Both the position numbers and the translations under genes were made by a program. A DNA stretch of 34,973 nucleotides from Thiobacillaceae bacterium (GTDB lineage Bacteria > Pseudomonadota > Gammaproteobacteria > Burkholderiales > Thiobacillaceae): positions 1 to 34,973 of the forward strand of contig JANWZL010000082.1 in the NCBI GenBank assembly GCA_025054655.1, in the 5' to 3' direction. Each line of letters opens with the position of its first letter. The stretch's first letter is position 1. Below, in pieces: positions 2,642 to 34,435 of the stretch. Below the pieces are notes generated by a model, which was not told where the DNA came from, searched no databases, and saw nothing but the letters and a program-made list of their open reading frames with translations.

Positions 2642-3307
2642 ATGGCTAACACTACCGAACGCGTCGACCGTCTCGAAGAGGCGCTGATGAAACTCGCCTA
2701 TGCGCAGTTCAACACCGAGATGGAGATCCGCGATCTCAAGGGTGAAATGCTGGCGTTCAAGAAAGAAATGGCCGAGTTCAAGAACGAGATGGCCGAGTTC
2801 AAGAACGAGATGGCCGAGTTCAAGAACGAGGTGCGGCGCGATCAGAAGGCGATGAACAAGCGCTGGGGCGAGATCTCCAACAAGATGGGTACCATTGTCG
2901 AGGACATCATCTATCCCTCGGTACGTCGCATCGCCCGCGAACATTTTGGTGCGCCTGACGACATGGAGTTCGAGGGGCAGCGCATCAAACGCCTGCGTGC
3001 GGCAGGCGACCGGCGCGAATTCGACGGGGTCTTCGCCTGGCCGGGGCATGTTCTGGTACTGGAGGCAAAGGCTACGGTGCGGCCGGAGTACCTGGAGGCC
3101 TTCGATGACTTCGTGCGTAAGGGTCTGTTCTTCGCCTACTTTCCGGAGTATGAGGGGCGTCGTCTCATCCCGGTCTTTGCCGCTTTGGCGCTGACGGAAA
3201 GTGAAATTGACTGGTTGAGCGCGCATCATCTCTACGCTGTGGCCATGGGCGAGGAGGCGATGGAGCTATTGAACGGCGAGGTCGTCGACGCGGCGCGCAG
3301 GGGCTGA
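2642..3307 (+). CDS. Coiled-coil protein with C-terminal PD-(D/E)XK nuclease-like domain (DUF3782-like)
   Basis: Encodes 221 residues. Residues 1-80 are a charged heptad-rich coiled coil containing three exact MAEFKNE repeats (43-63) preceded by a degenerate copy (MLAFKKE). Residues 84-200 look like a PD-(D/E)XK nuclease fold: REFDGVF with D128, then VLVLEAKAT with E141 and K143, the D-X12-EXK spacing of this superfamily. The layout matches proteins often labelled DUF3782 or, misleadingly, 'chordopoxvirus fusion protein'. A good ribosome binding site (GCAGGAGATTGCC) precedes the ATG. It stands alone as a single transcription unit in accessory DNA. A nuclease activity, substrate or defence role is inference from the fold only. 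Confidence 0.75.
   Translation: MANTTERVDRLEEALMKLAYAQFNTEMEIRDLKGEMLAFKKEMAEFKNEMAEFKNEMAEFKNEVRRDQKAMNKRWGEISNKMGTIVEDIIYPSVRRIAREHFGAPDDMEFEGQRIKRLRAAGDRREFDGVFAWPGHVLVLEAKATVRPEYLEAFDDFVRKGLFFAYFPEYEGRRLIPVFAALALTESEIDWLSAHHLYAVAMGEEAMELLNGEVVDAARRG
2768..2830 (+). repeat. Three exact 21-bp tandem repeats inside the nuclease-like gene
   Basis: The 21-base unit encoding MAEFKNE occurs at 2768-2788, 2789-2809 and 2810-2830 with no differences. A diverged unit (2747-2767, MLAFKKE) precedes it. The unit is exactly seven codons, one coiled-coil heptad, so gain or loss of copies would lengthen or shorten the coiled coil without a frameshift. Confidence 0.9.
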
Positions 3308-7009: not shown

Positions 7010-7425
7010 GGTCGCGGCTTACGCCGCTCCTACAACACGGCGGCGGTGGGCCAGGGTGCTAGGAGCGACGTTGTAGGAGCGACATCAGTCGCGACTAGAC
7101 CCAGCCCATACACCGAGGGGGCACCTGCAGTCGCGGCTTACGCCGCTCCTACCCCAACAACCAGCGATTCCAAGGCGACATTGGAGCATTGTGGGAGCGA
7201 CGTTGTAGGAGCGACGTCAGTCGCGACCGTCCCAACCCCGGCACCCGTGTCCACATGCGCTGCAGGTCGCGGCTCACGCCGCTCCTACCCAAACAACCAG
7301 CGATCCCAAGGCGACATTGGAGCATTGTAGGAGTGACGTTGTAGGAGCGACGTCAGTCGCGACCGCCCCAACCCAGGCGCCCGTGTCCGCATGGACTGCG
7401 GGTCGCGGCTTACGCCGCTCCTACA
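7010..7425. repeat. REP/BIME array with a 136-bp tandem duplication
   Basis: Alternating REP units: reverse units (GTCGCGGCTTACGCCGCTCC type) at 7010-7034, 7130-7152, 7265-7288 and 7400-7425; forward units (TAGGAGCGAC...GTCGCGAC type) at 7058-7095, 7191-7228 and 7326-7364. Each forward unit carries an extra half-copy, TAGGAGCGACGT, in front. A 136-base segment (7161-7296) including CCAGCGATTCCAAGGCGACA is repeated almost exactly from 7297 onward. REP pairs of this style are common between genes in Gammaproteobacteria, where they can stabilise transcripts or bind gyrase or IHF. No RAYT transposase is in the window. The 660-base gap from dgt to 7504 holds no other gene. Confidence 0.88.
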
Positions 7426-8930: not shown

Positions 8931-9916
8931 ACGCCCGGGCGCAGACCACCCCCGCGACCTGGACCACCGAGGCAGTGCTGGCGCTGTACGCGCTGCCTTT
9001 CAACGACCTCGTCCATCGCGCCGCCTGTGTGCACCGGCAACACTTCGACCCCAATGCGGTGCAGCTGTCCACCCTGCTGTCGGTGAAGACCGGCGGCTGC
9101 TCCGAGGACTGCGGCTATTGCGCCCAGTCGGCCCGTTACGATACAGGGCTAACCCGTCAGGGGCTGCTTGAGGTCGAGCAGGTGGTCGAGGCGGCGCGTG
9201 CGGCACAGGCGCAAGGAGCGACCCGGTTTTGCATGGGCGCGGCCTGGCGCGGTCCGAAAGACAGGGATCTCGCTGTGGTGATCGACATGGTGCGGGCGGT
9301 CAAGGCCTTGGGGCTGGAGACCTGCGTCACCCTGGGGCAACTCAGGCCCGGTCAGGCCGAGCGGTTGAAGGCGGCGGGTCTGGACTATTACAACCACAAT
9401 CTCGACACCGGCTCGGACTACTACGATCGAGTAGTGAGCACCCACTCTTATGAAGACCGGCTGCGCACGCTCAATCAGGTGCGTGCGGCGGGGATCAAGG
9501 TGTGCTGTGGGGGTATCATCGGTATGGGCGAGGACCGGCGTGTGCGGGCGCAACTCATCGCCGAGCTGGCCAGCCTCGACCCGCCGCCGGAATCGGTGCC
9601 CATCAACCTGTTGGTGAAGATCCCGGGTACGCCGATGGCGCAGGTGGAGGACCTCGATCCGCTGGAGCTGGTGCGCACCATCGCTTGCGCCCGCATCACC
9701 ATGCCCCGCTCATACGTGCGCCTGTCGGCCGGACGGCGGGCCTTGGGCGAGGCGGTGCAGGCGCTGTGTTTCCTGGCCGGCGCCAATTCCGTGTTCTACG
9801 GCGACCGGCTGCTGACCACAGACAACGCCGAGGTCGAGGCCGACCAGCGGCTGTTCGCCAAGCTGGGCATCAGGCCCGAGCCGGTGCAGGGCCGTCGCTG
9901 TGCCGGCGCCGACTGA
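8927..9916 (+). CDS. bioB: Biotin synthase
   Basis: Encodes 329 residues from ATG 8927. A radical-SAM enzyme that inserts sulfur into dethiobiotin, the last step of biotin synthesis. The CX3CX2C cluster motif is C58/C62/C65 in [16 protein letters not shown]. Other family segments are [53 protein letters not shown] and [19 protein letters not shown]. The TGA stop lies within the start of bioF, 17 bases of overlap. The gene is complete with the usual length, and function is secure. Confidence 0.98.
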
Positions 9917-11090
9917 ACTGGCCGCGCGCCTGGCCGAGATCGCCGCGCGCGGGCGGCTGCGCCGCCGGTGGGCGCGCGACGGCGGCCAGGGTGCGCACAT
10001 CTGGCTGGAGGGCCGGGAATACCTCAGCTTCGCCAGCAACGACTACCTGGGGCTGGCCAATCACTCCGAGCTGGTGGCGGAGGTGCAGATCGCCGCCGGG
10101 CGCCATGGGGTGGGGGCAGGGGCGGCGCACCTGCTCAGCGGTCACCACGCCCTGCATCAGGCCCTAGAGGCGGAGCTGGCCGCGTTCGTGGGCTTGCCGG
10201 CGGCCTTGCTATTCACTTGTGGCTACATGGCCAATCTGGGCGTGGTCACCGCCCTGCTCGGCCACCACGATGCCATCTTTGCCGACCGGCTCAACCACGC
10301 CTCGCTCACGGACGCGGCCATCCTCAGCCGCGCCCAGCACCATCGCTATCCCCATTTGGATCTCGCCGCCTTGGAGCGCATGCTGGCGGACAGCCGCGCG
10401 CGCGTGAAGCTGATCGCCACCGATGCCGTGTTCAGCATGGACGGCGACCTCGCCCCCCTGCCCGAGCTGCTCGCCCTGGCCGAGCGCTATGGGGCCTGGC
10501 TGTACGTGGACGACGCGCACGGCTTCGGCGTGCTGGGCGCCGAGGGGCGCGGCAGTCTGGAACACCACCGCCTCACCCTTCACCCCTCACCCCTCCCTCC
10601 TCACCCCGCCCTCATCTACATGGCCACCCTGGGCAAGGCGGCCGGGGTGAGCGGGGCCTTCGTCGCCGGTAGCCCGGAACTGATCGACTGGCTCACGCAG
10701 CGCGCACGCACCCACATCTACACCACCGCCTCGCCGCCCATGCTGGCGGCGGCAGTGCGCCGCAGCCTGCGCCTGATTCGCGCCGGCGAGCAGCGGCGCG
10801 CGCAACTGAGGGGCCTGATCGAGCGCCTGCGGCGGGGGGCGGAGGGGCTGCCCTGGCGGCTCAGGCCCTCCGACACCCCCATCCAGCCCCTCATCGTCGG
10901 CGAGGATGCCGCCGCGGTGCAGCTGTCCGAGGCGTTGCGCACGCGTGGCCTCTGGGTGCCCGCCATCCGTCCGCCCACCGTGCCCGAGGGCACGGCGCGG
11001 CTGCGCATCTCGCTGTCGGCTGCCCATCGCGAGGCGGACATCGACCGGCTGCTCGAGGCCTTGCACGCCATCGCCACCGAGTGCCGATGA
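9900..11090 (+). CDS. bioF: 8-amino-7-oxononanoate synthase
   Basis: Encodes 396 residues from a GTG start overlapping bioB. A PLP-dependent enzyme that condenses pimeloyl-ACP or -CoA with alanine. Signatures are [44 protein letters not shown] with the PLP-contacting aspartate and H207, and the Schiff-base lysine K246 in [16 protein letters not shown]. It is slightly long: residues about 222-237 ([16 protein letters not shown]) just before the lysine segment are encoded by heptamer repeats (10572-10606) and look like an insertion into a surface loop. The ATG of bioH overlaps its stop (ATGA). Confidence 0.97.
10572..10606 (+). repeat. Five CTCACCC-type heptamers inside bioF
   Basis: Consecutive 7-base units CTCACCC, TTCACCC, CTCACCC, CTCCCTC and CTCACCC are read in frame as part of the segment [12 protein letters not shown]. 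The array is 35 bases long, not a multiple of three, so a change by one unit would shift the bioF frame. Confidence 0.8.
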
Positions 11091-11854
11091 CCCCTGCACA
11101 CACCCCCCACCCCTCATCCCTGACCTGTCTGCACGGCTGGGGCCTGGGTCCTGACGTCTGGGACGATCTCAGGACGCGTCTGCCCGCGTGGGCCATCCGC
11201 ACGCCGGCGCTGCCGGGCTATGACGGGGGGGCCCTGCCCGCGCCTTATCGCCCCGAGACGCTGGCGGACGCCCTAGCCCGGCACGAGCCGGCACCGGGCG
11301 TGCTGCTGGGCTGGTCCATGGGCGGCATGGTGGCGCTCGCCTGGGCGGCGCGGGCGCCGCAGACGGTGCGCGGCCTGATCCTGGTGGCGAGCACCCCGGT
11401 CTTCGTCCAGCGAGCGGATTGGGCCGCGGGCCTGGCCCCCGAGGTGGTGGACGCATTCGCGGCCGAGCTGCTCGCCGATCCACGCGCCACCCTGCTGCGC
11501 TTCCTGGCCCTCACCGCCCGTGCCGGCGAGGCGGCGCGCGCGGTCACCGGTCGGCTGCGGGCGCTGCTCGACCGCCATGGCCACCCGCCCGCCACGACCC
11601 TGGCCGCGGGGCTTGAGCTGCTGCGCACGGCGGATCTGCGCCCGCGGCTGGCCGCCGTGCGCTGCCCGGTGCTGCTCGTGCACGGCGGCCACGACGCCCT
11701 GTGCCCGCCCGCGGCGGCTCATTGGCTCGCCGAGCGGCTGCCGCAGGCTCGCCTGGCGCTGCACCCACATGCCGCCCACGCCCCCTTCCTGTCCCACCCC
11801 GAGTGGTTCGCCGCCACGGTGGACGCCTTCCTGACCGAACTCGATGCACGCTAG
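11087..11854 (+). CDS. bioH: Pimeloyl-ACP methyl ester esterase
   Basis: Encodes 255 residues from ATG 11087, overlapping the bioF stop as ATGA. GTG at 11081 is a possible alternative. An alpha/beta hydrolase that removes the methyl group from pimeloyl-ACP methyl ester so that BioF can use it. The catalytic triad is visible: nucleophile S77 in LLGWSMGGMVALAW, D203 in LVHGGHDALCPP, H231 in HAAHAPFLSHPEWF, with the oxyanion HGWG motif at 16-19. The first twelve residues are read from degenerate heptamers (11099-11126). Its pairing with bioC directly downstream supports BioH rather than a generic hydrolase. Confidence 0.93.
   Translation: MTPAHTPHPSSLTCLHGWGLGPDVWDDLRTRLPAWAIRTPALPGYDGGALPAPYRPETLADALARHEPAPGVLLGWSMGGMVALAWAARAPQTVRGLILVASTPVFVQRADWAAGLAPEVVDAFAAELLADPRATLLRFLALTARAGEAARAVTGRLRALLDRHGHPPATTLAAGLELLRTADLRPRLAAVRCPVLLVHGGHDALCPPAAAHWLAERLPQARLALHPHAAHAPFLSHPEWFAATVDAFLTELDAR
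11099..11126 (+). repeat. Degenerate heptamers at the start of bioH
   Basis: CACACCC, CCCACCC, CTCATCC and CTGACCT follow each other in a 7-base rhythm that resembles the CTCACCC units in bioF and bioC. They begin 12 bases after the bioH start codon. The similarity is weaker than in the other two genes. Confidence 0.45.
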
Positions 11855-12734
11855 ACGGGCCATTCGCGCCGCCTTTGAACGCGCCGCTGCCGGTTATGAT
11901 GCCGCCGCCGTGCTGCAGCAGGAGGTGGCGCGCCGGCTCGACGAGCGGCTCACGGTGATGCGCATCGACCCCGCCGTGGTGCTCGACGCCGGTTGCGGCA
12001 CCGGCTTCGGACTGCCGTTGCTGCGCGCCCGCTATCCGCGCGCGCGCCTGCTCGCGCTCGACCTCGCCCTGGCCATGCTGCGTCAAGCACGGGCGAAATA
12101 CGAGACACCGCCCGGACCGCTCGGCAGACTCTGGTCACGCCTCACCCCTCACGCCTCACCCCTCAGCTTCCTATGCGCCGACCTGGAGCGGCTGCCGCTC
12201 GCCGCCAGCAGTCTGGACCTGGTGTGGTCCAACCTCACCCTGCAGTGGGTCGGCGACCCGGTGCAGACCTTCCGCGAACTGCGGCGGGTGCTGCGGCCGG
12301 GCGGTCTGTTGTTGTTCAGCACCTTCGGCCCCGACACCCTGAAAGAGCTGCGCCAGGCCTTCGCCGGGGTGGACGGCCACGCGCACGTCAACCGCTTCAT
12401 CGACCTGCACGACCTGGGCGATGCCCTGGTACACACGGGATTCCAGCATCCGGTGATGGAGATGGAGTTCATCACCCTCACCTACCCCGACCTCAAGGCC
12501 CTGCTGCGCGAGCTCAAGGCGATCGGGGCGGACACCGTGCTCGAGGGGCGCCGCCGTGGGCTCATGGGCAAGGCCTCTTGGCAGCGGCTGGAGCAGAACT
12601 ACGAGCGGCTGCGGCGGGCGGACGGCCGGCTGCCGGCCACTTTCGAGGTGATCTACGGCCACGCCTGGGCGGTTGGCCCAGGACCGGCCCAAGGCGGCCG
12701 GCGGGTGATCAGCCTGCGGCTCGAGCCCGGCTGA
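11844..12734 (+). CDS. bioC: Malonyl-ACP O-methyltransferase
   Basis: Encodes 296 residues from ATG 11844, overlapping the end of bioH by 11 bases. SAM-dependent methylation of malonyl-ACP starts the pimeloyl branch of biotin synthesis. SAM motif I is VVLDAGCGTGFG at 46-57, followed by LLALDLALAMLRQA. The family segments FLCADLERLPLAASSLDLVWSN and LRPGGLLLFSTFGPDTLKEL are strongly BioC-like. Residues about 98-108 (WSRLTPHASPLS) are encoded by heptamer repeats and extend a loop before the ADLERLP segment. It is the last gene of the operon, and no bioD follows, unlike the common bioBFHCD order. Confidence 0.95.
   Translation: MHARRAIRAAFERAAAGYDAAAVLQQEVARRLDERLTVMRIDPAVVLDAGCGTGFGLPLLRARYPRARLLALDLALAMLRQARAKYETPPGPLGRLWSRLTPHASPLSFLCADLERLPLAASSLDLVWSNLTLQWVGDPVQTFRELRRVLRPGGLLLFSTFGPDTLKELRQAFAGVDGHAHVNRFIDLHDLGDALVHTGFQHPVMEMEFITLTYPDLKALLRELKAIGADTVLEGRRRGLMGKASWQRLEQNYERLRRADGRLPATFEVIYGHAWAVGPGPAQGGRRVISLRLEPG
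12141..12168 (+). repeat. Four CTCACCC-type heptamers inside bioC
   Basis: CTCACCC, CTCACGC, CTCACCC and CTCAGCT lie head to tail and are read as RLTPHASPLS. The 28-base length is not a multiple of three, so a change in copy number would break the bioC frame. Confidence 0.75.
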
Positions 12735-25139: not shown

Positions 25140-27308
25140 TCAGCGGCGCTCCCACACCGTCAGCTCCGCCACCGTGTGCTGGTACTTGCGCGCCGTCTCG
25201 CGCAGGACGAAGGGCAGCTCACGCCGATCGACGAGCCGGAAGTGGGTGTGCAGACACTCTTGCAACCCCTCCAGACTGGACACCGGCCGACCGTCGCGCC
25301 GGTAGCCGCCCAGCCATTCCGACTTGGGCGTGTACTCCTCCAACCAGGTGTAAGGCGAGGTGAGGATGAGCAACCCACCGCGCTGCAGGCGCTCGTGCAC
25401 ACGTTGCAGGAAGGCGCGCGGACGGGCGAGCCGGTCGATCAGGTTGCCGGCGAAGATGAGGTCGTAGCCCGTGAACTGGGGCTTGAGATTGGTCGCATCG
25501 CCCTGCCAAAAGGCCACCCGCTCGCCGACCTCCGCCAGGCCGAGGTCGGCCAGCCGCAGCTCGCGCGCCTCGGTCAGTTCGCCCTCGGTGGGGATGGCCC
25601 AGGCGATCCGCCCTTGCTCTTTGAGCGCCAGGGCCACGCGGATGAAACGGGCGGTGTAGTCTATGCCTTCGACCTGAGCGAAACCGCGCGCGAGCTCATA
25701 GGCCGCCCGTCCTACGGCGCAGCCGAGGTCCAGCGCCCGCCGGCGCGGCCGGTCTTGCATGTACTGCAGGCACAAGGCGGCGCAGGCGGCGGGGAAGTTG
25801 GCCACCCCGAAATACTCTGGCCCGTAGTGGAACTCGCAATACTGCGCCACTTGCGCATCGGTCTCGTAGAGGTTGCGGGTGGAGCGCTCCACCCGTGCGC
25901 CATAGGGGTTTTCGCCCGCTTCCACATAACGCAGGCCGGCGTGCTGGAAGAAGTGGCGGCGGAAGGCGTAGCGCGCATGGCGGCTCGCTTCGTTGCCGGT
26001 GGAGATGAAGCTGCCGCCCTTGATCAGGTTGTGCTTGTCGTCGAAGGTGGGGGTGGAAAAGTCGTCGTAGAGCGGGTGGACGGCGAAGCCCTCGAAGGCG
26101 TCTATGGGGGTCTCGGTCCACTGCCAGACATTGCCCACCACGTCGCAGAAGCCGTCGCGGAAGACGAAACGGTCCACCGGGCAGGCGCTCGCCCAGTGCT
26201 CCAGGTTGATGTTGCCCGGGGCCGACCCCGCCGGGCCCCAGTCAGGCTCGTCGGGGATGCCCGAGTGGTCGCGCAGCCGCAGCCACTCGTCCTCGGTGGG
26301 TAGGCGCAGGGGGCGGCCGGTCTGCGCCGCCTTCCAGTTGCAGAAGGCCTTGGCCTCCAGCCAGTTGACGTCCACCGGCCAGTCCCAGGGCATGTCGATC
26401 TCGGCAGCCAGGGTCCGGTAGCGCCAATGTCCGCCCGCGCGCCGCCAGAACAGCGGATGCTCGGGCTTGCGGTAGGCGAGCCAGGCGCGCCCCTCCTCGG
26501 TCCACCAGCGCGGCTGCCGATAACCACCGGCCTCGACGAAGGCCAGATATTCGGCATTGCTGACCAGGTAACGGCTTGCCCGGAAGGGCGCGATCTCGAC
26601 CGTGTGCCGACCGTACTCGTTGTCCCAGCCGTAGAGCTTGTGGCCGCGCGGCTTGCCGGCCTCGACGCGGCCGCCGGGTACCGGCAACAGCTCATTGCGC
26701 GGCACCGAACCGGGCTCGGTGCGCATCTGCGGGCAGCGGACCCAGAAGGCGTGCACGGGGTCGGCAGGGGGTTTGAGATGTTCCAGCGCGGTCTGGCGGA
26801 TCAGCACCGAGGAGGTCTCCAGATGGATGCGCTCGTGCTCGATGCCCATAAGCAGCGCCCAGGCCGGCGAGTCCCAACCCACCGGCAGCTCGATGGGCAA
26901 CCTTTCGATCACCGCATGCACCAGCGCCTTCATACGCGTGCGGTAGGCGCGCACCTCGGCCACCGGTGGCCAGCGATAATGGGCGGGGTTGAGGTCGTCC
27001 CAGCTCATCTCGTCCACCCCGACCGCGAACATGGACTCGAACTCCGGGTGGATGCGCTCGTCGGTCAGGCCGGCGAGGTTCAGCTTATTGACGTAGAAGG
27101 TGGCGGTGTGGCCATAGTAGAAGATGTGCGGGTGGCGCAACGGCTCGGGCTGCACATAGAAGGCGGCATCGTCGCGCAGACAGTCGAACAGCCGCTCATA
27201 CAGCGCCGTGGTGCGGTCGAAGTAGTCGCGCAGCCGCGCCCGCCAGACCTCGGGCGGGCCCTGGTCGAGCAGTAGGTTGCGGGTATGGAAGTCGCGCAGG
27301 GTGTCCAT
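25140..27308 (-). CDS. ovoA: Ovothiol synthase OvoA (5-histidylcysteine sulfoxide synthase with methyltransferase domain)
   Basis: Encodes 722 residues in the three-part OvoA layout. A DinB-like N-terminal domain carries the non-haem iron motif HX3HXE (H158, H162, E164 in GIEHERIHLETS) and H67 in YYGHTATFYVNKL. An FGE/sulfatase-modifying-type domain follows at about 205-460 (YLVSNAEYLAFVEAGGY, RLPTEDEWLRLRD, VVGNVWQWTETP, KGGSFISTGNEASRHARYAF). A C-terminal SAM methyltransferase starts near 510 (ALDLGCAVGRAAYEL). OvoA joins histidine and cysteine as a sulfoxide, and after C-S lyase (OvoB) action its methyltransferase makes ovothiol, an antioxidant. No ovoB is visible here. It converges on the transglycosylase gene. 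Confidence 0.93.
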   Translation of the reverse strand: MDTLRDFHTRNLLLDQGPPEVWRARLRDYFDRTTALYERLFDCLRDDAAFYVQPEPLRHPHIFYYGHTATFYVNKLNLAGLTDERIHPEFESMFAVGVDEMSWDDLNPAHYRWPPVAEVRAYRTRMKALVHAVIERLPIELPVGWDSPAWALLMGIEHERIHLETSSVLIRQTALEHLKPPADPVHAFWVRCPQMRTEPGSVPRNELLPVPGGRVEAGKPRGHKLYGWDNEYGRHTVEIAPFRASRYLVSNAEYLAFVEAGGYRQPRWWTEEGRAWLAYRKPEHPLFWRRAGGHWRYRTLAAEIDMPWDWPVDVNWLEAKAFCNWKAAQTGRPLRLPTEDEWLRLRDHSGIPDEPDWGPAGSAPGNINLEHWASACPVDRFVFRDGFCDVVGNVWQWTETPIDAFEGFAVHPLYDDFSTPTFDDKHNLIKGGSFISTGNEASRHARYAFRRHFFQHAGLRYVEAGENPYGARVERSTRNLYETDAQVAQYCEFHYGPEYFGVANFPAACAALCLQYMQDRPRRRALDLGCAVGRAAYELARGFAQVEGIDYTARFIRVALALKEQGRIAWAIPTEGELTEARELRLADLGLAEVGERVAFWQGDATNLKPQFTGYDLIFAGNLIDRLARPRAFLQRVHERLQRGGLLILTSPYTWLEEYTPKSEWLGGYRRDGRPVSSLEGLQECLHTHFRLVDRRELPFVLRETARKYQHTVAELTVWERR

Positions 27309-27808: not shown

Positions 27809-29533
27809 CTAGGCGTTGAGCCGCTGCACGTAGGCGTGGATGCGCTCGGCCTCGCCCTCGCGCAACAGCCGTCGGGCGTGGGCGCCCAACTCGCGCAGGT
27901 CGCTGTGCAGGATGCGCTGTTTGACCTTGAGCAGGTGGGCCGGGTGCATGGAGAAGCTGCGCAAGCCGAACGCCAGCAACAGGCGAGTCAGCTGTGCATC
28001 CCCCGCCATCTCGCCGCATATGGACACCGGTTTGCCCAGCCGTGCGGCCACCCGCAAGGTGTGGTGGATGAGCCTCAGCACCGCGGGATGCAGCGGGTCG
28101 TAGAGGTGGGCCACGCTGTCGTCGGTGCGGTCGATGGCCAGGGTGTACTGGATCAGGTCGTTGGTGCCGATGGACAGGAAGTCCAGCCGGCGCGCGAACC
28201 ATTCGACCGCGAGCGCCGCTGCCGGCACCTCGATCATGCCGCCGATGGGTACGTCGCGCCGGTAGGGGCGGCCGGCACGGTCGAGCTCCGCCTTGGCCTG
28301 GGCGATCAGTTCCAGGGCCTGGTTGAGCTCCTTCAGGTTGGCCAGCATGGGCAGCAGGATGCGCACGTCGCCGTGGCAGGCGGCGCGCAGTAGGGCCCGC
28401 ACCTGGGTCAGGAAGATGGGCGGCTCCGACAGGCATAGCCGGATGGCGCGCAGTCCCAGGGCCGGGTTGATGCTCTCGTGCCGCAACCAGGGCAGTCGCT
28501 TGTCGGCGCCCAGATCGAGCGTGCGGATGACCACCGGCCGCCCCTTCATCGCCTCCACCACAGCGCGGTAGGCCTCGAACTGCTCGTCCTCGCCCGGCAG
28601 GTCGGAGCGGTTCATGTACAGGAACTCGCTGCGGAACAGGCCGATGCCGGCGGCGTTCTGCTCCAGCGCCTCCTGCACGTCCTGCGGCAGGTCGATGTTG
28701 GCCATCAGCTCGATGGGTGTGCCGTCCAGGGTGGCCGCCGGGCTCTTCTTCAGCCGCTTGAGCTTCTGCTGCTCCAGCCGCCACTGGTTCTGGCGGATGC
28801 GGTATTCCTCCAGGATGGCCTGGTCCGGCTCGACGATGACCACGCCCTGCTCGCCGTCCACCACCAGCACGTCGCCCTCGCGGATCAGCGCGCGCGCGTT
28901 GTGTAGCGCCATCACCGCGGGGATGTTGAGGCTGCGGGCGAGGATCGCCGTGTGCGAGGTGGCCCCACCCAGGTCGGTGATGAAGGCGGCGTAGTTCTGC
29001 CGCTTGAACAGCACCATGTCGCTCGGTGACAGGTCGTGCGCCACCAGCACGCTCGCCTCCTCGCCGACGGTCTTCAGCGGCGCGTGCCCCGGGTGGCCCA
29101 TGAGCGCCTTCATGATGCGCTCGCTCACCTGGCGCACGTCATGCTTGCGCTCGCGCAGGTAGGGGTCCTCCATGGCCTCGAACTGGTCGATCAAGGCCTG
29201 GGTCTGCTGCGCCAGGGCCCACTCGGCGTTGCAACGTTCCGCCTCGATCAGGCGCTTGGGCGCCTCGGCGATCATGGAGTCCTCCAGGATGAGCCGGTGC
29301 ACGTCGAGGAAGGCCGCCAGCTCCGCCGGTGCATGCTCGGGCAGCTGATCCTGCAGAAGGGTCAGCTCCGCCCGCACGGCGGAGACCGCCTCGTCATAGC
29401 GCGCGATCTCGGCTGGCAGATCCTCGCGGCGCAGCACGTAATGCGGCGCCTCCAGGCGGTCGTGGGAGAACAGTTGTGCGCGCCCGATGGCGTAGCCGCC
29501 GGACACACCGATACCGTGCAGGGTGAAGGGCAT
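27809..29533 (-). CDS. ptsI: PTS enzyme I (phosphoenolpyruvate-protein phosphotransferase)
   Basis: Encodes 574 residues. It transfers phosphate from PEP to HPr. The phosphorylated histidine is H194 in DLGGATSHTAILARSLNIPAV. The TIM-barrel PEP domain shows GIGLFRSEFLYM, IRTLDLGADKR, and the C-terminal active-site cysteine in KPVSICGEMAGD. The start codon is directly joined to an array of TCCCTGA heptamers on the coding strand, so there is no Shine-Dalgarno sequence. Initiation may depend on translation arriving from ptsH or on unusual signals. It is the last gene of the EIIA-HPr-EI operon. Confidence 0.97.
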   Translation of the reverse strand: MPFTLHGIGVSGGYAIGRAQLFSHDRLEAPHYVLRREDLPAEIARYDEAVSAVRAELTLLQDQLPEHAPAELAAFLDVHRLILEDSMIAEAPKRLIEAERCNAEWALAQQTQALIDQFEAMEDPYLRERKHDVRQVSERIMKALMGHPGHAPLKTVGEEASVLVAHDLSPSDMVLFKRQNYAAFITDLGGATSHTAILARSLNIPAVMALHNARALIREGDVLVVDGEQGVVIVEPDQAILEEYRIRQNQWRLEQQKLKRLKKSPAATLDGTPIELMANIDLPQDVQEALEQNAAGIGLFRSEFLYMNRSDLPGEDEQFEAYRAVVEAMKGRPVVIRTLDLGADKRLPWLRHESINPALGLRAIRLCLSEPPIFLTQVRALLRAACHGDVRILLPMLANLKELNQALELIAQAKAELDRAGRPYRRDVPIGGMIEVPAAALAVEWFARRLDFLSIGTNDLIQYTLAIDRTDDSVAHLYDPLHPAVLRLIHHTLRVAARLGKPVSICGEMAGDAQLTRLLLAFGLRSFSMHPAHLLKVKQRILHSDLRELGAHARRLLREGEAERIHAYVQRLNA

Positions 29534-29659
29534 TCAGGGATCAGGGATCAGGGATCAGGGATCAGGGATCAGGGGTCAGGGATCAGGGATCAGGGATCAG
29601 GGATCAGGGATCAGGGGTCAGGGATCAGGGGTCAGGGATCAGGGGTCAGGGATCAGGGC
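29534..29659. repeat. Eighteen TCAGGGA heptamers abutting the ptsI start
   Basis: On the plus strand TCAGGGA is repeated head to tail 18 times. Copies 6, 12, 14 and 16 are TCAGGGG and the last is TCAGGGC. On the coding strand this reads TCCCTGA and runs directly into the ptsI ATG. The 78 bases from 29660 to 29737 are unique sequence without a gene. Confidence 0.95.
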
Positions 29660-29737
29660 TGTGTGGGGAATAGACATCAAGTCTGCGATTTCTGCAACCC
29701 GATGCCCTGACAACCTGGTCTCTAACACAAGCCCCGT

Positions 29738-29786
29738 TTCCTGATGCCTGATGCCTGATTCCTGATGCCTGATTCCTGAGGCCTGA
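29738..29786. repeat. Seven NNCCTGA heptamers starting at the ptsH stop
   Basis: Plus-strand units TTCCTGA, TGCCTGA, TGCCTGA, TTCCTGA, TGCCTGA, TTCCTGA and GGCCTGA end exactly at the ptsH stop codon. On the coding strand they read TCAGGNN. This is roughly complementary to the TCCCTGA array further downstream in the same mRNA, so the two can pair. Confidence 0.92.
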
Positions 29787-30056
29787 TTACTGTTCCTCCC
29801 CGAACTTGTCGGCGATCAGGGTGGTGAGCGCGGCCATCGCCTCCTGCTCGTCGGGCCCATCGACCTGGAGCTTGAGCGTGGTGCCTTTGGCCGCGGCGAG
29901 CATCATCACCCCCATGATGCTCTTGCCGTTCACCCGGCGGCCATCGCGCACCAGCCACACGTCCGAGGCGAAGCGGCTGGCGGTCTGGGTCAGCTTGGCC
30001 GAGGCACGCGCGTGCAGGCCCAGCCGGTTGACGATCTGGACCTCACGCTCCAGCAT
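29787..30056 (-). CDS. ptsH: PTS phosphocarrier protein HPr
   Basis: Encodes 89 residues from ATG 30056 (MLEREVQIVNRLGLHARASA), the usual HPr length. ATG at 30071 would add five residues. The phosphorylated histidine is H15 in RLGLHARASAKL, and the regulatory serine S46 in VNGKSIMGVMML suggests possible control by an HPr kinase, although hprK is not in the window. It overlaps the EIIA gene by 14 bases. Without EIIB/EIIC sugar permease genes nearby, this HPr probably serves regulatory phosphotransfer. Confidence 0.96.
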   Translation of the reverse strand: MLEREVQIVNRLGLHARASAKLTQTASRFASDVWLVRDGRRVNGKSIMGVMMLAAAKGTTLKLQVDGPDEQEAMAALTTLIADKFGEEQ

Positions 30057-30450
30057 CGCAGGTTTCGGCATGGATATGGAAGGTGCTTTCACGGGCGCCC
30101 TGGACGACGTGGTCGGCCAGGCGTGGCAGGGGTTCGCCGCGGTAGGTGATGGCCTTGAGCAGCATGGGCAGGCTCGCACCGGCCACCGCCTCCACCCGGC
30201 CGGGTTGGACCAGGCGACAGACGGTGTTGCAGGGCGTGGCGCCATAGATGTCGGCCAGGATCAGGACCCCGTCGCCTTCGTCGAGTTGGGCGATCCTCTC
30301 CCGCGCCCGTGCGAGCAGGCGCTCAGGGTCCGCCTCGCTCGATAGGTCGAGTGAGAGCAGGTGTCGAGGGCGCTGACCAAGGACATGGGTGGCACACTCG
30401 ATGAGTGAATCACCCAAGCTGCCATGGGCGACGACGAGCAGGCCGATCAT
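30043..30450 (-). CDS. PTS EIIA component, mannose family
   Basis: Encodes 135 residues. The EIIA-Man fold starts IGLLVVAHGSLGDSLIE with the phosphorylated histidine H9. GDGVLILADIYGATPCNTVCRL and VAGASLPMLLKAITYR are typical. In Beta- and some Gammaproteobacteria this EIIA lies with ptsH and ptsI, often near hprK and rapZ, and no sugar-transport EIIB/EIIC is present. It is then thought to regulate metabolism. First gene of the operon, overlapping ptsH. A possible -10 (TTATAG, reverse strand at 30474-30479) lies just upstream. Confidence 0.92.
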   Translation of the reverse strand: MIGLLVVAHGSLGDSLIECATHVLGQRPRHLLSLDLSSEADPERLLARARERIAQLDEGDGVLILADIYGATPCNTVCRLVQPGRVEAVAGASLPMLLKAITYRGEPLPRLADHVVQGARESTFHIHAETCDAGA

Positions 30451-30473
30451 GCAGGCTTAGAGGGATGCGACCG

Positions 30474-30590
30474 CTATAAGTTTAGCATTCCCTCATATAC
30501 CTTCCGTGAGCAGGGTCACTCTCAGGCGTAGCTGAGCGCAGATTTGTCACCCCATCGCCACGTCTGCCTGACCGCCGGTCGAGTTACAAT
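30474..30590. promoter_or_regulatory. Divergent promoter region between PTS operon and dehydrogenase
   Basis: On the reverse strand TTATAG (30474-30479) is a candidate -10 for the PTS operon. On the forward strand TACAAT (30585-30590) is a candidate -10 for the dehydrogenase gene 48 bases downstream. No strong -35 box was seen for either. The 187-base gap contains no gene. Confidence 0.3.
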
Positions 30591-30637
30591 ATCCGGTTCA
30601 CCTCCAGCGCCTTGCCTAACCTCGCCGTCCCCACCGC

Positions 30638-33600
30638 ATGACCGAGCGCATCCGCGAGATCCCCTACAACTACACCTCCTTTTCCGACCGGGAGATCGTG
30701 CTGCGCATCCTGGGCGAAGAGGGCTGGCGTCTTATCGACGAGCTGCGCCACGAGCGGCGCACCGGCCGCTCGGCGCGCATGCTGTTCGAGGTGCTGGGCG
30801 ACATCTGGGTGGTCACCCGCAACCCCTATCTGGAGGACGACCTGCTCGCCGACCGCCGCCGCCGGCGGCTGCTCATCGAGGCCTTGCGCCACCGCCTGGC
30901 CGAGATCGAGCGCCGGCGTCAGGGCAACGCGAAGGTGGGGCGGCTGCTTGCGCTGGCACAGGCGGCAGTGGAGGCCTTCGAACGCGGTTTCGACCAGACC
31001 GCCCGGCTTAGAGCGGCAGTGGTGCGGCGGCTCGCCCGCCACACCCGGCGCGACAACATCGCCTTCGACGCCTATGCGCGCGTGTCGCATGTGACCGACG
31101 CCACCGACTGGCGGGTCGAATACCCCTTCGTGGTGCTGTTCCCCGACCGGGAAGAGGAATTGCCGCCGCTGGTGGCCGGCTGTGTCGAGTTGGGGCTCAC
31201 CGTCATCCCGCGCGGCGGCGGCACCGGTTACACCGGCGGGGCGGTGCCGCTCACCCGCCTGAGCGCGGTGATCAACACTGAGAAACTGGACTGGATCTCG
31301 CCCATAGAACTCAAGGTGCTGCCCGGTCATCGCGAGCCCACGCCGGTGATCACCTGCGGCGCGGGGGCGGTGACCCGGCGGGTGATGGAGGTGGCCGAGG
31401 CGGCGGGGCTCGTCTTTGCGGTCGATCCCACCTCGGCCGACGCCTCCACCATCGGCGGCAACGTGGCCATGAACGCCGGCGGCAAGAAGGCGGTGCTGTG
31501 GGGCACGGCGGTGGACAACCTGGTGGCGTGGAAGATGGTCACCCCGCAGGGCGATTGGCTCACGGTCACGCGGCTCGACCACAACCTGGGCAAGATCCAC
31601 GAGGTGGAGACGGCCCGCTTCGAGTTGCGGCGCCATCACGCCGACGGCCGCCCCAAGGGCGCGCCCGAGGTGCTGGAGATCCCCGGCCGACGCTTCCGCA
31701 AGGCGGGGCTGGGCAAGGATGTCACCGACAAGTTCCTGTCCGGCCTGCCGGGCATCCAGAAAGAGGGCTGCGACGGCCTCATCACCCAGGCGAGCTTCGT
31801 CCTGCATCGCATGCCCTCCCAGGTGCGCACGGTCTGCCTGGAGTTCTTCGGCAGCGCGCACGACTCGGTCCCGGCCATCGTCGAGGTGAAACGCTTTCTC
31901 GACGCGCGGCCGGGCGGGGTGGTGTTGGCCGGGCTGGAGCATCTGGACGCGCGCTACGTCAAGGCGGTGGGCTACGCCACCAAGGCCCCGCGGCCACAGC
32001 GCCCCAGCATGGTGCTGCTGGCTGACCTGGCGGGCGAGGATGCCACTGCGGTGCAGGCGGCGGCCGAACACATGGTCGAACTGGCCCGTCGGCGCGGCGG
32101 CGAGGGGTTCATCGCAGTGGAGGAGGCCCAACGCCGGGCCTTCTGGCAGGATCGCGCCCGCACCGCGGCCATCGCCGCGCACACCAACGCCTTCAAGATC
32201 AACGAGGACGTGGTGATCCCACTGGAGCGGCTGGCCGACTACACCGACGGGGTGGAGCGCATCAACATCGAGCTGTCCATCGCCAACAAACTGGAGCTGC
32301 TCGATGCCCTGGAGGCCTTTCTGCGCGGGCCGCTGCCCACCGCCGCCGACGAGGAAGAGCCCGACGCCAGGCTCACCGAGACGCGCCGGGCGCAGGCCTT
32401 GGAGCTGATCGGCCAGGTGCGCCGCCGCTGGCAAACCTATCTGCACGATCTGGACGCGCCCGTGCCGGATGAGGGCACCGGTGCGGGGGGTGGGGTGAAG
32501 ACGGTGTTCCGCGCCCTGCAGGACCATAGCCTGCGCGTGTCCTGGAAACGCGAGGTACGCGCCCCGCTCAGGCAGATCTTCACCGGCCGGGCCTATGCCC
32601 CGGTGCTCACGGAGTGCGAGCGCATCCACGCCCAGGTGCGCAAACGCCGGGTGTTCGTGGCCCTGCACATGCACGCGGGCGACGGCAACGTGCACACCAA
32701 CATCCCGGTCAACTCGGACGACTATGACATGCTCAAGACCGCCAATGCGGCGGTGGCGCGCATCATGCGCCTGGCCGAGGATCTGGGCGGGGTGATCTCG
32801 GGTGAACACGGCATCGGCATCACCAAGCTGGAATTCCTGCCCCCCGAGGCCCTGGAAGCGTTCGCCCGTTACAAACGCGAGGTGGACCCGGAAGGCCGTT
32901 TCAACCGCGGCAAGCTGCTCGCCGGCGCGGATCTGCGCAACGCCTACACCCCCAGCTTCAACCTGCTGGAGCTGGAGTCCCTGATCATGGAACAGTCCGC
33001 CATCGGCGCCATCGCCGATGCGATCAAGGACTGCCTGCGCTGCGGCAAGTGCAAGCCGGTGTGCAACACCCACGTGCCGCGCGCCAACCTGCTCTACAGT
33101 CCGCGCAACAAGATCCTCGCTACGTCGCTGCTGATCGAGGCCTTCCTGTACGAGGAGCAGACCCGCCGCGGCGTGTCCGCCAACCACTTCGCCGAGTTCG
33201 ACGACGTGGCCGACCACTGCACCGTCTGCCACAAATGCAAGAACCCCTGCCCGGTGGACATCGACTTCGGCGACGTCTCCGCCGCCATGCGCCAGTTCCT
33301 GCGCGACCAGGGCAAGCTACGGCGCAAGCCGGGCGCCGCGGCGGCGATGTTCTTCCTCAACGCCACGCGTGAGCGGACTATAGAACTGACCCGCAAGGCA
33401 ATGATCGTCTGGGGCTACCGGATGCAGCGCCTGGGGCATACGGTGGTGCGCCGGCTGCGGCTTACCGAGGCACAGACACGCGAGCCCCCGGCCACCACCG
33501 GCCGCCCTGCCGTCACAACCCAGGTCATCCATTTCTTCAACCGGCCGCTGCCGGACAAACTGCCGGCCCGTCCCATGCGCGCCCTGTTGGGCCTGGCCGA

Positions 33601-34435
33601 CCCCGCCAAGGTGCCCATCCTACGCGACCCGGCCAAACTGGAGGAGGACGGCGAGGCCGTGTTCTACTTCCCTGGCTGCGGCAGCGAGCGGCTGTTCTCC
33701 CAGGTGGGGCTGGCCACCCTGGCCTGGCTGTATGAGCTGGGCGTGCAGACCGTGCTGCCGCCGGGTTACCTCTGCTGCGGCTATCCGCAGACCGCCGCGG
33801 GTGACCGCGCGCGCGGCGAGGCCATCACCACCGCCAACCGCGTGCTCTTCCACCGCGTGGCCAACACCCTCAACTATCTCGACATCAAGACCGTGCTCGT
33901 CTCCTGCGGCACCTGTCTGGACCAGCTGGCGCACTACCAGTTCGACCACATCTTCCCCGGCTGCCGCATCCTCGACATCCATGAGTACCTGATGGAGAAA
34001 GGGGTGCGGCTCGAGGGGGTGCCGGGTGTGCGCTACCTCTACCACGACCCTTGCCACAGCCCCATGAGGCAGCACCACCCCATCGCCACCGCCCAGCGTC
34101 TGCTCGGCACCGAGGTGCGCCTGTCCGAGCGCTGCTGCGGCGAGGCGGGGACCTTCGCCGCCGCCCGCCCCGACATCGCCACCCAGGTGCGCTTCCGCAA
34201 GGCGGAGGAGATCCGCCGAGTGACCGGGCCTATGCTGGCCGAGACGGGCAGCACGGTCAAACTGCTCACCGCCTGCCCGTCCTGCCTGCAGGGCTTGAGC
34301 CGTTTCGAGCCGGACACCGGGGTGCAGGCCGATTATCTGGTGGTGGAGCTGGCGCGCCGCAGGTTGGGTGAGGACTGGATGGAACGTTTCCTCGATCGGG
34401 TGCAAAATGGTGGCATCGAACAGGTCCTGTTGTGA
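30638..34435 (+). CDS. Large FAD/Fe-S/CCG-domain dehydrogenase (DUF3683 type)
   Basis: Encodes 1265 residues. The order is an N-terminal DUF3683 (about 1-130, [17 protein letters not shown]), a GlcD-like FAD-binding domain (about 165-390, [20 protein letters not shown] and [17 protein letters not shown]), an FAD-linked oxidase C-terminal domain ([16 protein letters not shown] and [17 protein letters not shown]), two 4Fe-4S motifs ([11 protein letters not shown] and [13 protein letters not shown], about 800-875), and a CCG domain ([11 protein letters not shown] and [11 protein letters not shown]). It resembles D-lactate or D-2-hydroxyacid dehydrogenases fused to their electron-transfer part, so it probably oxidises a hydroxyacid and passes electrons to quinone or a cytochrome. 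The substrate is unknown. No separate partner subunit is nearby. Confidence 0.92.

Follow-up and report, generated by a model that had tools for sequence, protein, structure and literature searches.

Two opposed heptamer arrays occupy the gap between ptsH and ptsI in a Thiobacillaceae bacterium, and a comparison with related genomes shows that the arms of such gaps are complementary, that the word is shared within a junction far above chance and that the word at the orthologous junction varies with lineage. The real finding, judged from the sequences compared, is an apparent turnover of the word while the arms stay matched. The opposed-array architecture is already known from Xanthomonas (2015); the word lock and the word turnover at one junction appear to be new, as judged from the literature searched.

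Layout and predicted fold of the ptsH–ptsI gap

Coordinates are positions in the 34,973-nt stretch of contig JANWZL010000082.1, Thiobacillaceae bacterium, which as a whole is called the window. Both genes lie on the minus strand and are separated by a 253-nt gap, with the following features (basis in brackets):

27809–29533, minus strand: ptsI (enzyme I, EI), 574 aa (Pfam, NCBIfam)
29534–29659, minus strand: long arm, 18 heptamers (sequence, Tandem Repeats Finder, unit counts)
29660–29737, minus strand: unique centre of 78 nt, flanked by both arms (blastn, promoter and terminator search)
29738–29786, minus strand: short arm, TCAGGNN in seven units (sequence, Tandem Repeats Finder, unit counts)
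29787–30056, minus strand: ptsH (HPr), 89 aa (Pfam)
30043–30450, minus strand: EIIA-Man gene, upstream, overlapping ptsH (Pfam)

On the coding strand, the long arm runs from 29659 down to 29534 as TCCCTGA or CCCCTGA units with GCCCTGA as the first (TCAGGGA/TCAGGGG when read outward on the plus strand), and its last base adjoins the ptsI ATG (29531–29533) with no spacer. The short arm runs from 29786 down to 29738, its first base adjoining the ptsH TAA stop (29787–29789), and Tandem Repeats Finder gave copy numbers of 17.9 and 6.9 for the long and the short arm, respectively. The preliminary description, which placed seven TCAGGNN units at the ptsH stop and 18 TCCCTGA units up to the ptsI start, was borne out by sequence and counts. 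Matches to TCAGGNNTCAGG numbered 23 in the window, all within 29534–29786 (17 on the plus and 6 on the minus strand), against an expectation of 0.06 per stretch from shuffles. Read outward, every unit has C or A at base 6 if it belongs to the 7-unit arm and G if it belongs to the 18-unit arm, so the arms pair at 5 to 6 of 7 bases, as had been claimed, with base 6 as the mismatched one.

The centre returned zero blastn matches (E up to 1) against 74 own-genome loci (about one-fifth of the genome) and the junction loci of nine relatives. Promoter-like and intrinsic-terminator-like sites were both absent from 29400–30700, and an intrinsic terminator in the gap was rejected on this basis; known RNA families at gathering threshold were likewise absent from the window.

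For the coding-strand RNA of the gap, the predicted fold had an energy of −118.2 kcal/mol versus −77.0 ± 4.6 kcal/mol for shuffles (z −8.9), a strong stem that agrees with the long imperfect hairpin proposed earlier, for which folding was the suggested check. The alternative registers also proposed were right as thermodynamics, since 12 short-on-long-arm duplexes in different registers lie close in energy, from −60.1 to −64.6 kcal/mol (a spread of at most 4.5 kcal/mol). In a ptsH–ptsI read-through mRNA, the arms are predicted to pair as an intercistronic stem that separates the ptsH stop from the ptsI start, the minimum-free-energy stem in the source gap ending 35 nt ahead of the ptsI ATG.

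Elsewhere in the window, a 136-bp tandem repeat of 2.7 copies with palindrome-like parts (GTAGGAGCGACG / GTCGCGGCTTACGCCGCTCCTAC) occupies 7060–7424. An OvoA-type protein is encoded near the pts genes (25140–27308, minus strand) and combines a 5-histidylcysteine sulfoxide synthase domain with a putative 4-mercaptohistidine methyltransferase domain, and a 1265-aa ORF on the plus strand (30638–34435) has DUF3683, FAD-oxidase, Fe-S and CCG domains, with DUF3400 at the end.

The same junction in related bacteria

The best ptsI matches carried names such as Burkholderiales, Thiobacillus and Parasulfuritortus. From 210 junction loci (own genome twice), 195 were resolved and 175 were unique by sequence, junctions being lost at contig ends or where ptsH or ptsI motifs were undetected; most of the genomes are draft assemblies or metagenome bins, and their repeats may have been collapsed in length. 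In 105 of the 175 junctions, ptsI overlaps ptsH or follows it closely (gap ≤20 nt), and in 49 the two genes lie 60–300 nt apart; within the family Thiobacillaceae, 38 of the 68 resolved junctions have a gap ≤0 nt, and most of those listed show a 4-nt overlap. Period-7 arrays, called where lag 7 gave ≥14 of 21 possible matches and no lag in 4–6 and 8–11 did better, were found in 23 of the 49 gaps of 60–300 nt, with lags 4–6 and 8–12 giving 0–3. In 16 of these 23 gaps the arms are complementary; the words, read by eye, number about a dozen and include ACCGGGG (outward), AAAGTGA, GTGTTAA, TTTCGGA and AAGGATG; the other seven have no matched arms, and 26 of the 49 gaps have no arrays.

Arm complementarity was 12.7 within a gap versus 6.7 across lineages, and 0 of 20,000 permutations were as high (25 gap lineages, some of them close kin). 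Read outward, G exceeds C in 30 of the 32 arms of the 16 both-armed gaps, with one tie and one reversed. The matching has exceptions: one counter-example (L236) carries two different words in its arms, three gaps (L042, L160 and L298) have one arm each, another (L316) is filled by a single array, L232, with a score of 11, falls just below the cut, and L075, counted as array-bearing, is probably GC-rich noise.

Both copy number and word differ among related genomes, a comparison of copy numbers having been put forward as a check, and between species (one genome per species compared) the arrays differ in word and length. Among three congeners with 83–85% EI identity, two have GTGAGG-type units only before ptsI, one above the period-7 cut and the other just below, and the third has nothing above the cut. 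In one clade of 12, the gap measures 86–116 nt in 11 members and the word differs among members. Parsimony on a 101-protein tree, with array-state labels set by hand and three degenerate cases included, requires at least 8 switches of array state and 13 of long-gap state; with 8 changes of array state, the lineages are therefore not all independent. Arrays were present in 19 of 38 ptsH–ptsI gaps versus 3 of 111 other gaps of the same loci (Fisher p 7e-11), a hot-spot status to be stated with care because the controls were not matched for position within operons and a gap that holds arrays is necessarily long.

The range of words bears on the idea that the G-rich strand forms quadruplexes that act on transcription or replication. 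Each unit of the 18-unit arm contains GGG on the plus strand, and similar words formed quadruplexes in vitro (PMC4692102, available text). Against this, at least four GGG runs within the first 45 nt occur in only 1 of the 32 arms of the 16 both-armed junctions (the long arm of the source gap), the relatives' words listed above have, apart from ACCGGGG, no GGG, and the source mRNA bears the C-rich strand of the long arm. As a general cause, quadruplexes are disfavoured by the count of GGG runs, and we regard this reading as very improbable.

Heptamer arrays across the genome

The preliminary description treated the arrays as a feature of a single locus, a view that did not stand, as the source gap belongs to a repeat architecture that is widespread. 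In the assembly (2.2 Mb, 84% complete), TCAGGNNTCAGG has 100 matches in 27 clusters (backwards control, 0), and for a second word, GTGAGGN, three-unit matches (≤1 mismatch) number 121 versus 5 for the control. Arrays of both words lie mostly at gene edges and are directed away from genes. Intergenic TCAGG arrays of the own genome and of a congener number 40, and 31 of them are directed away from the nearest called gene. Of the nine exceptions, eight lie in co-directional gaps and face the start of the neighbour, and the ninth (L124) abuts an ORF start that the caller set too late and is therefore outward too, as the 32nd. Nine more TCAGG arrays, outside the 40, lie inside called genes, five outward within 60 nt of the 3' end and four elsewhere. 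Of 44 intergenic GTGAGG arrays in a selection of 42 own-genome stretches (a subset of those in the genome), 40 are outward (39 of 43 without one that lies inside bioC), and in each of the 13 GTGAGG arrays placed inside called genes the C-rich strand is sense, the orientation without stop codons, some of these calls possibly being read-through of stop-free array frames. Random scatter through the genome, named earlier as evidence against a role, was not the pattern found: there is a gene-edge bias and a preferred polarity, though some arrays are intragenic.

Two of the intragenic cases lie in the window. In bioF (9900–11090, plus strand), an in-frame C-rich array of the CACCCCT type at 10560–10613 goes with 8 additional residues relative to the best solved homologue, and in bioC (11844–12734, plus strand) a CACCCCT-type word lies in frame at 12135–12165, directly ahead of ADLERLPL. 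All gene calls came from a home-made codon-score caller, which missed bioC near 12140, set the ORF start beside L124 too late and mistyped two junctions (L119 4272 and L136) as divergent; the last three loci were re-read, and at the L119 array a tRNA-hydrolase-like ORF runs into the array with a same-strand ORF beyond.

Samples drawn blind to arrays showed lag 7 in 10 of 104 own-genome gaps (non-harmonic lags, 0–2) and, modestly, in 6 of 203 gaps of a complete relative (other lags, 0–3); G-skew fitted outward polarity in only 11 of 16 array-blind regions. In a lag profile pooled over all intergenic edges of 80 named loci, a period-7 peak was not clear; with per-region windows in place of the pooled profile, period 7 became visible.

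Word sharing within a gap was counted in 200 own-genome gaps, array-enriched by selection, with outward units alone counted. Arms were present in 48 gaps, 15 both-armed and 33 single-armed. The both-armed gaps comprise six TCAGG/TCAGG pairs, nine GTGAGG/GTGAGG pairs and no mixed pair (Fisher p 2e-4, two-word test), cases such as L357 and L120 falling outside the two-word test and so never being counted as mixed. At L357 (347–498), a GTGAGG-type arm is joined to a heptamer-like word, GGACAGA/GACGGAG, as a possible mixed pair, and words of this type also occur in L139 around an array at 2999–3024; L120 has a different left edge and is likewise a possible mixed pair.

By the gene calls, 13 of the 15 both-armed junctions are co-directional, with a single convergent and a single divergent one, against a background of 43 divergent gaps in 200. 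The one called divergent (L136) is co-directional, its minus-strand ORFs comprising one of 167 aa that ends at one arm and one of 308 aa that starts at the other. This junction (3054–3211) is both-armed in TCAGG, with 11 and 5 units, and is a second operon junction of like build; the ORFs, named from their sequences, are presumably peptide-deformylase-like followed by formyltransferase-like. Without reference to words, arm complementarity of ≥13 in gaps of 60–300 nt was found in 2 of 70 own-genome gaps (both co-directional, 0 of 21 divergent) and in 8 of 143 gaps of the relative. Of these eight, six are co-directional and two convergent, with 0 of 43 divergent gaps reaching this value; just three are heptamer arrays.

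A mobile inverted-repeat element (MITE- or REP-like) with heptamer arms, inserted into the gap, would fit the paired arms around a centre and the many gapless relatives. It would not fit a centre that is unmatched in the searched fifth of the own genome, arms that abut stop and start codons, words that vary among relatives or single arms in 33 of 48 arm-bearing gaps, and it is the least probable of the origins considered, extremely so in our estimate.

Comparable repeats have been described in Xanthomonas (GGGAATC) and Nostoc (GGGGA(C/T)T), where heptamers are mostly intergenic between co-directional ORFs and under-represented between divergent ones, with the G-rich strand ≤50 bp past stops on the sense strand or ahead of starts on the antisense strand (PMC4692102, available text). 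The same text reports 70 and 75 convergent heptamer pairs in two Xanthomonas genomes and a gene context shared between two species for 83% of the repeats; in it, Rehm et al. (2015) discuss quadruplexes and identify no regulatory role. Our arrays are of the same kind in being dispersed tandem 7-base units of at least two copies, in their outward polarity for TCAGG and GTGAGG alike (both source arms too), and in forming inverted pairs in one gap, the source gap included among the 15. They differ in that the source units read GGGATCA/GGGGTCA and GGCATCA/GGAATCA rather than GGGNATC, and in that two words coexist here, each junction being word-locked, whereas the available text gives one G-rich word family per organism for Xanthomonas and Nostoc. 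A further difference from Xanthomonas is that the word at an orthologous junction varies by lineage and can lack GGG.

The TAACTGA repeats of Beggiatoaceae end a few nt before starts, where canonical ribosome-binding sites are rare; they are mostly in one orientation, with one inverted case in 170 sets and no paired arms in the available text (PMC4679880). TCCCTGA is a similar word and likewise lies directly before a start, although the word itself differs. A description of word-locked arms, or of word turnover at one junction, was not found in the literature searched, most subscription journals lying outside the search.

Translation signals and proposed explanation

The last codons of ptsH provide a Shine-Dalgarno-like sequence, GGGGAGGAA at 29793–29801, and no Shine-Dalgarno sequence lies ahead of the ptsI ATG in the source gap. 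Among the relatives, 91 of 105 junctions with gaps ≤20 nt have a Shine-Dalgarno-like motif ahead of ptsI, versus 9 of 49 with gaps of 60–300 nt, the latter split as 4 of 23 with arrays and 5 of 26 without; the loss is equal in array-free gaps and is therefore tied to the gap, not to the arrays. In tested E. coli pairs, translational coupling was nearly gone at about 20 nt (PMC10666635, available text). Because the motif is rare and coupling is nearly lost at about 20 nt, the long gap would remove both the usual signal and a coupling-range distance, arrays or not. An internal ptsI promoter in the centre was tried and rejected (sigma-70 weights, mean z −0.35 in the 16 both-armed versus 0.41 in the 26 array-free gaps).

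The stem might instead act as a bridge, setting the ptsH stop and its Shine-Dalgarno-like end beside the ptsI start and so restoring translational coupling. In line with this, predicted anti-Shine-Dalgarno pairing reaches −6 kcal/mol or stronger at the ptsH end in 14 of 16 both-armed lineages and in the region before ptsI in 1 of 16, and in 9 of 16 the distances from the outermost predicted spanning pair to the stop and to the start add up to ≤10 nt. The ptsH end, however, is Shine-Dalgarno-like in all gap classes and equally so in array-free gaps (23 of 26), and the protein sequence may therefore explain it; its retention is non-discriminating and was rejected as proof of bridging. Array-free gaps also often close near both ends, the source stem falls 35 nt short of the ATG and the coupling range in the tested E. 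coli pairs is short, all of which make bridging improbable.

The explanation we favour, tentatively and at somewhat less than even confidence, is a family of inverted heptamer-array pairs maintained by slippage and template switching. Heptamer arrays would lengthen and shorten through slippage, and replication template switching across the inverted repeat would copy one arm onto the other, so that the word changes and the arms stay matched. Template switching is reported to create and maintain hairpins (Monttinen and Loytynoja 2022; PMC8794818, available text), and the arm-to-arm copying would be a shared mutation process, although those hairpins are in RNA genes and ours are tandem heptamer arrays between protein genes. 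In a read-through mRNA, a stem with the ptsH stop and the ptsI start at its two ends would form. EI translation would be uncoupled from that of HPr, because the overlap and the Shine-Dalgarno sequence in the ptsH end are replaced by a long C-rich, hairpin-closed leader without a Shine-Dalgarno sequence, and would probably be lowered relative to HPr; this is the weakest step. Array copy number would then tune EI relative to HPr, and the HPr:EI ratio may plausibly be affected. Slightly more guarded is our confidence in the self-rewriting hairpin, in which slippage gives new words, template switching imposes the same word on both arms and the stem persists.

Selection on pairing is opposed by base 6, which does not covary between the source arms, contrary to the prediction of strict selection, and intragenic arrays fit, as expected, a spread into any tolerated site. 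Slippage and template switching wherever tolerated, with a hairpin that has no use, could leave the arrays as a neutral by-product. Their polarity would then reflect purifying selection only, with G-rich words before starts acting as false Shine-Dalgarno sequences or starts and words with an in-frame TGA barred from genes. Neutrality is favoured by the stop-free arrays within bioF, bioC and 11 further called genes, the one in bioF going with extra residues, and also by the variation of word and copy number among relatives and the persistence of array-free gaps. By itself it leaves unexplained the outward polarity after stops, which holds for TCAGG (TGA on the C-rich strand) and GTGAGG (TGA on the G-rich strand) alike, and the enrichment at ptsH–ptsI, as far as a control unmatched for operon-internal gaps allows. 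We consider the neutral reading a serious contender, with perhaps one chance in three of being right.

Gene-edge heptamer repeats have been published since at least 2015 with their role unexplained, and the quadruplex proposal needs G-rich words. A change of word at an orthologous junction, with arms that tend to stay matched, separates pairing from word sequence, and the natural matched-word junctions are ready-made compensatory cases with which the question is testable with reporters. If the self-rewriting hairpin is true, it would generalise the Xanthomonas repeats and remove quadruplexes as their common cause, and operons would gain a fast-evolving spacer, with ptsH–ptsI as a hot spot.
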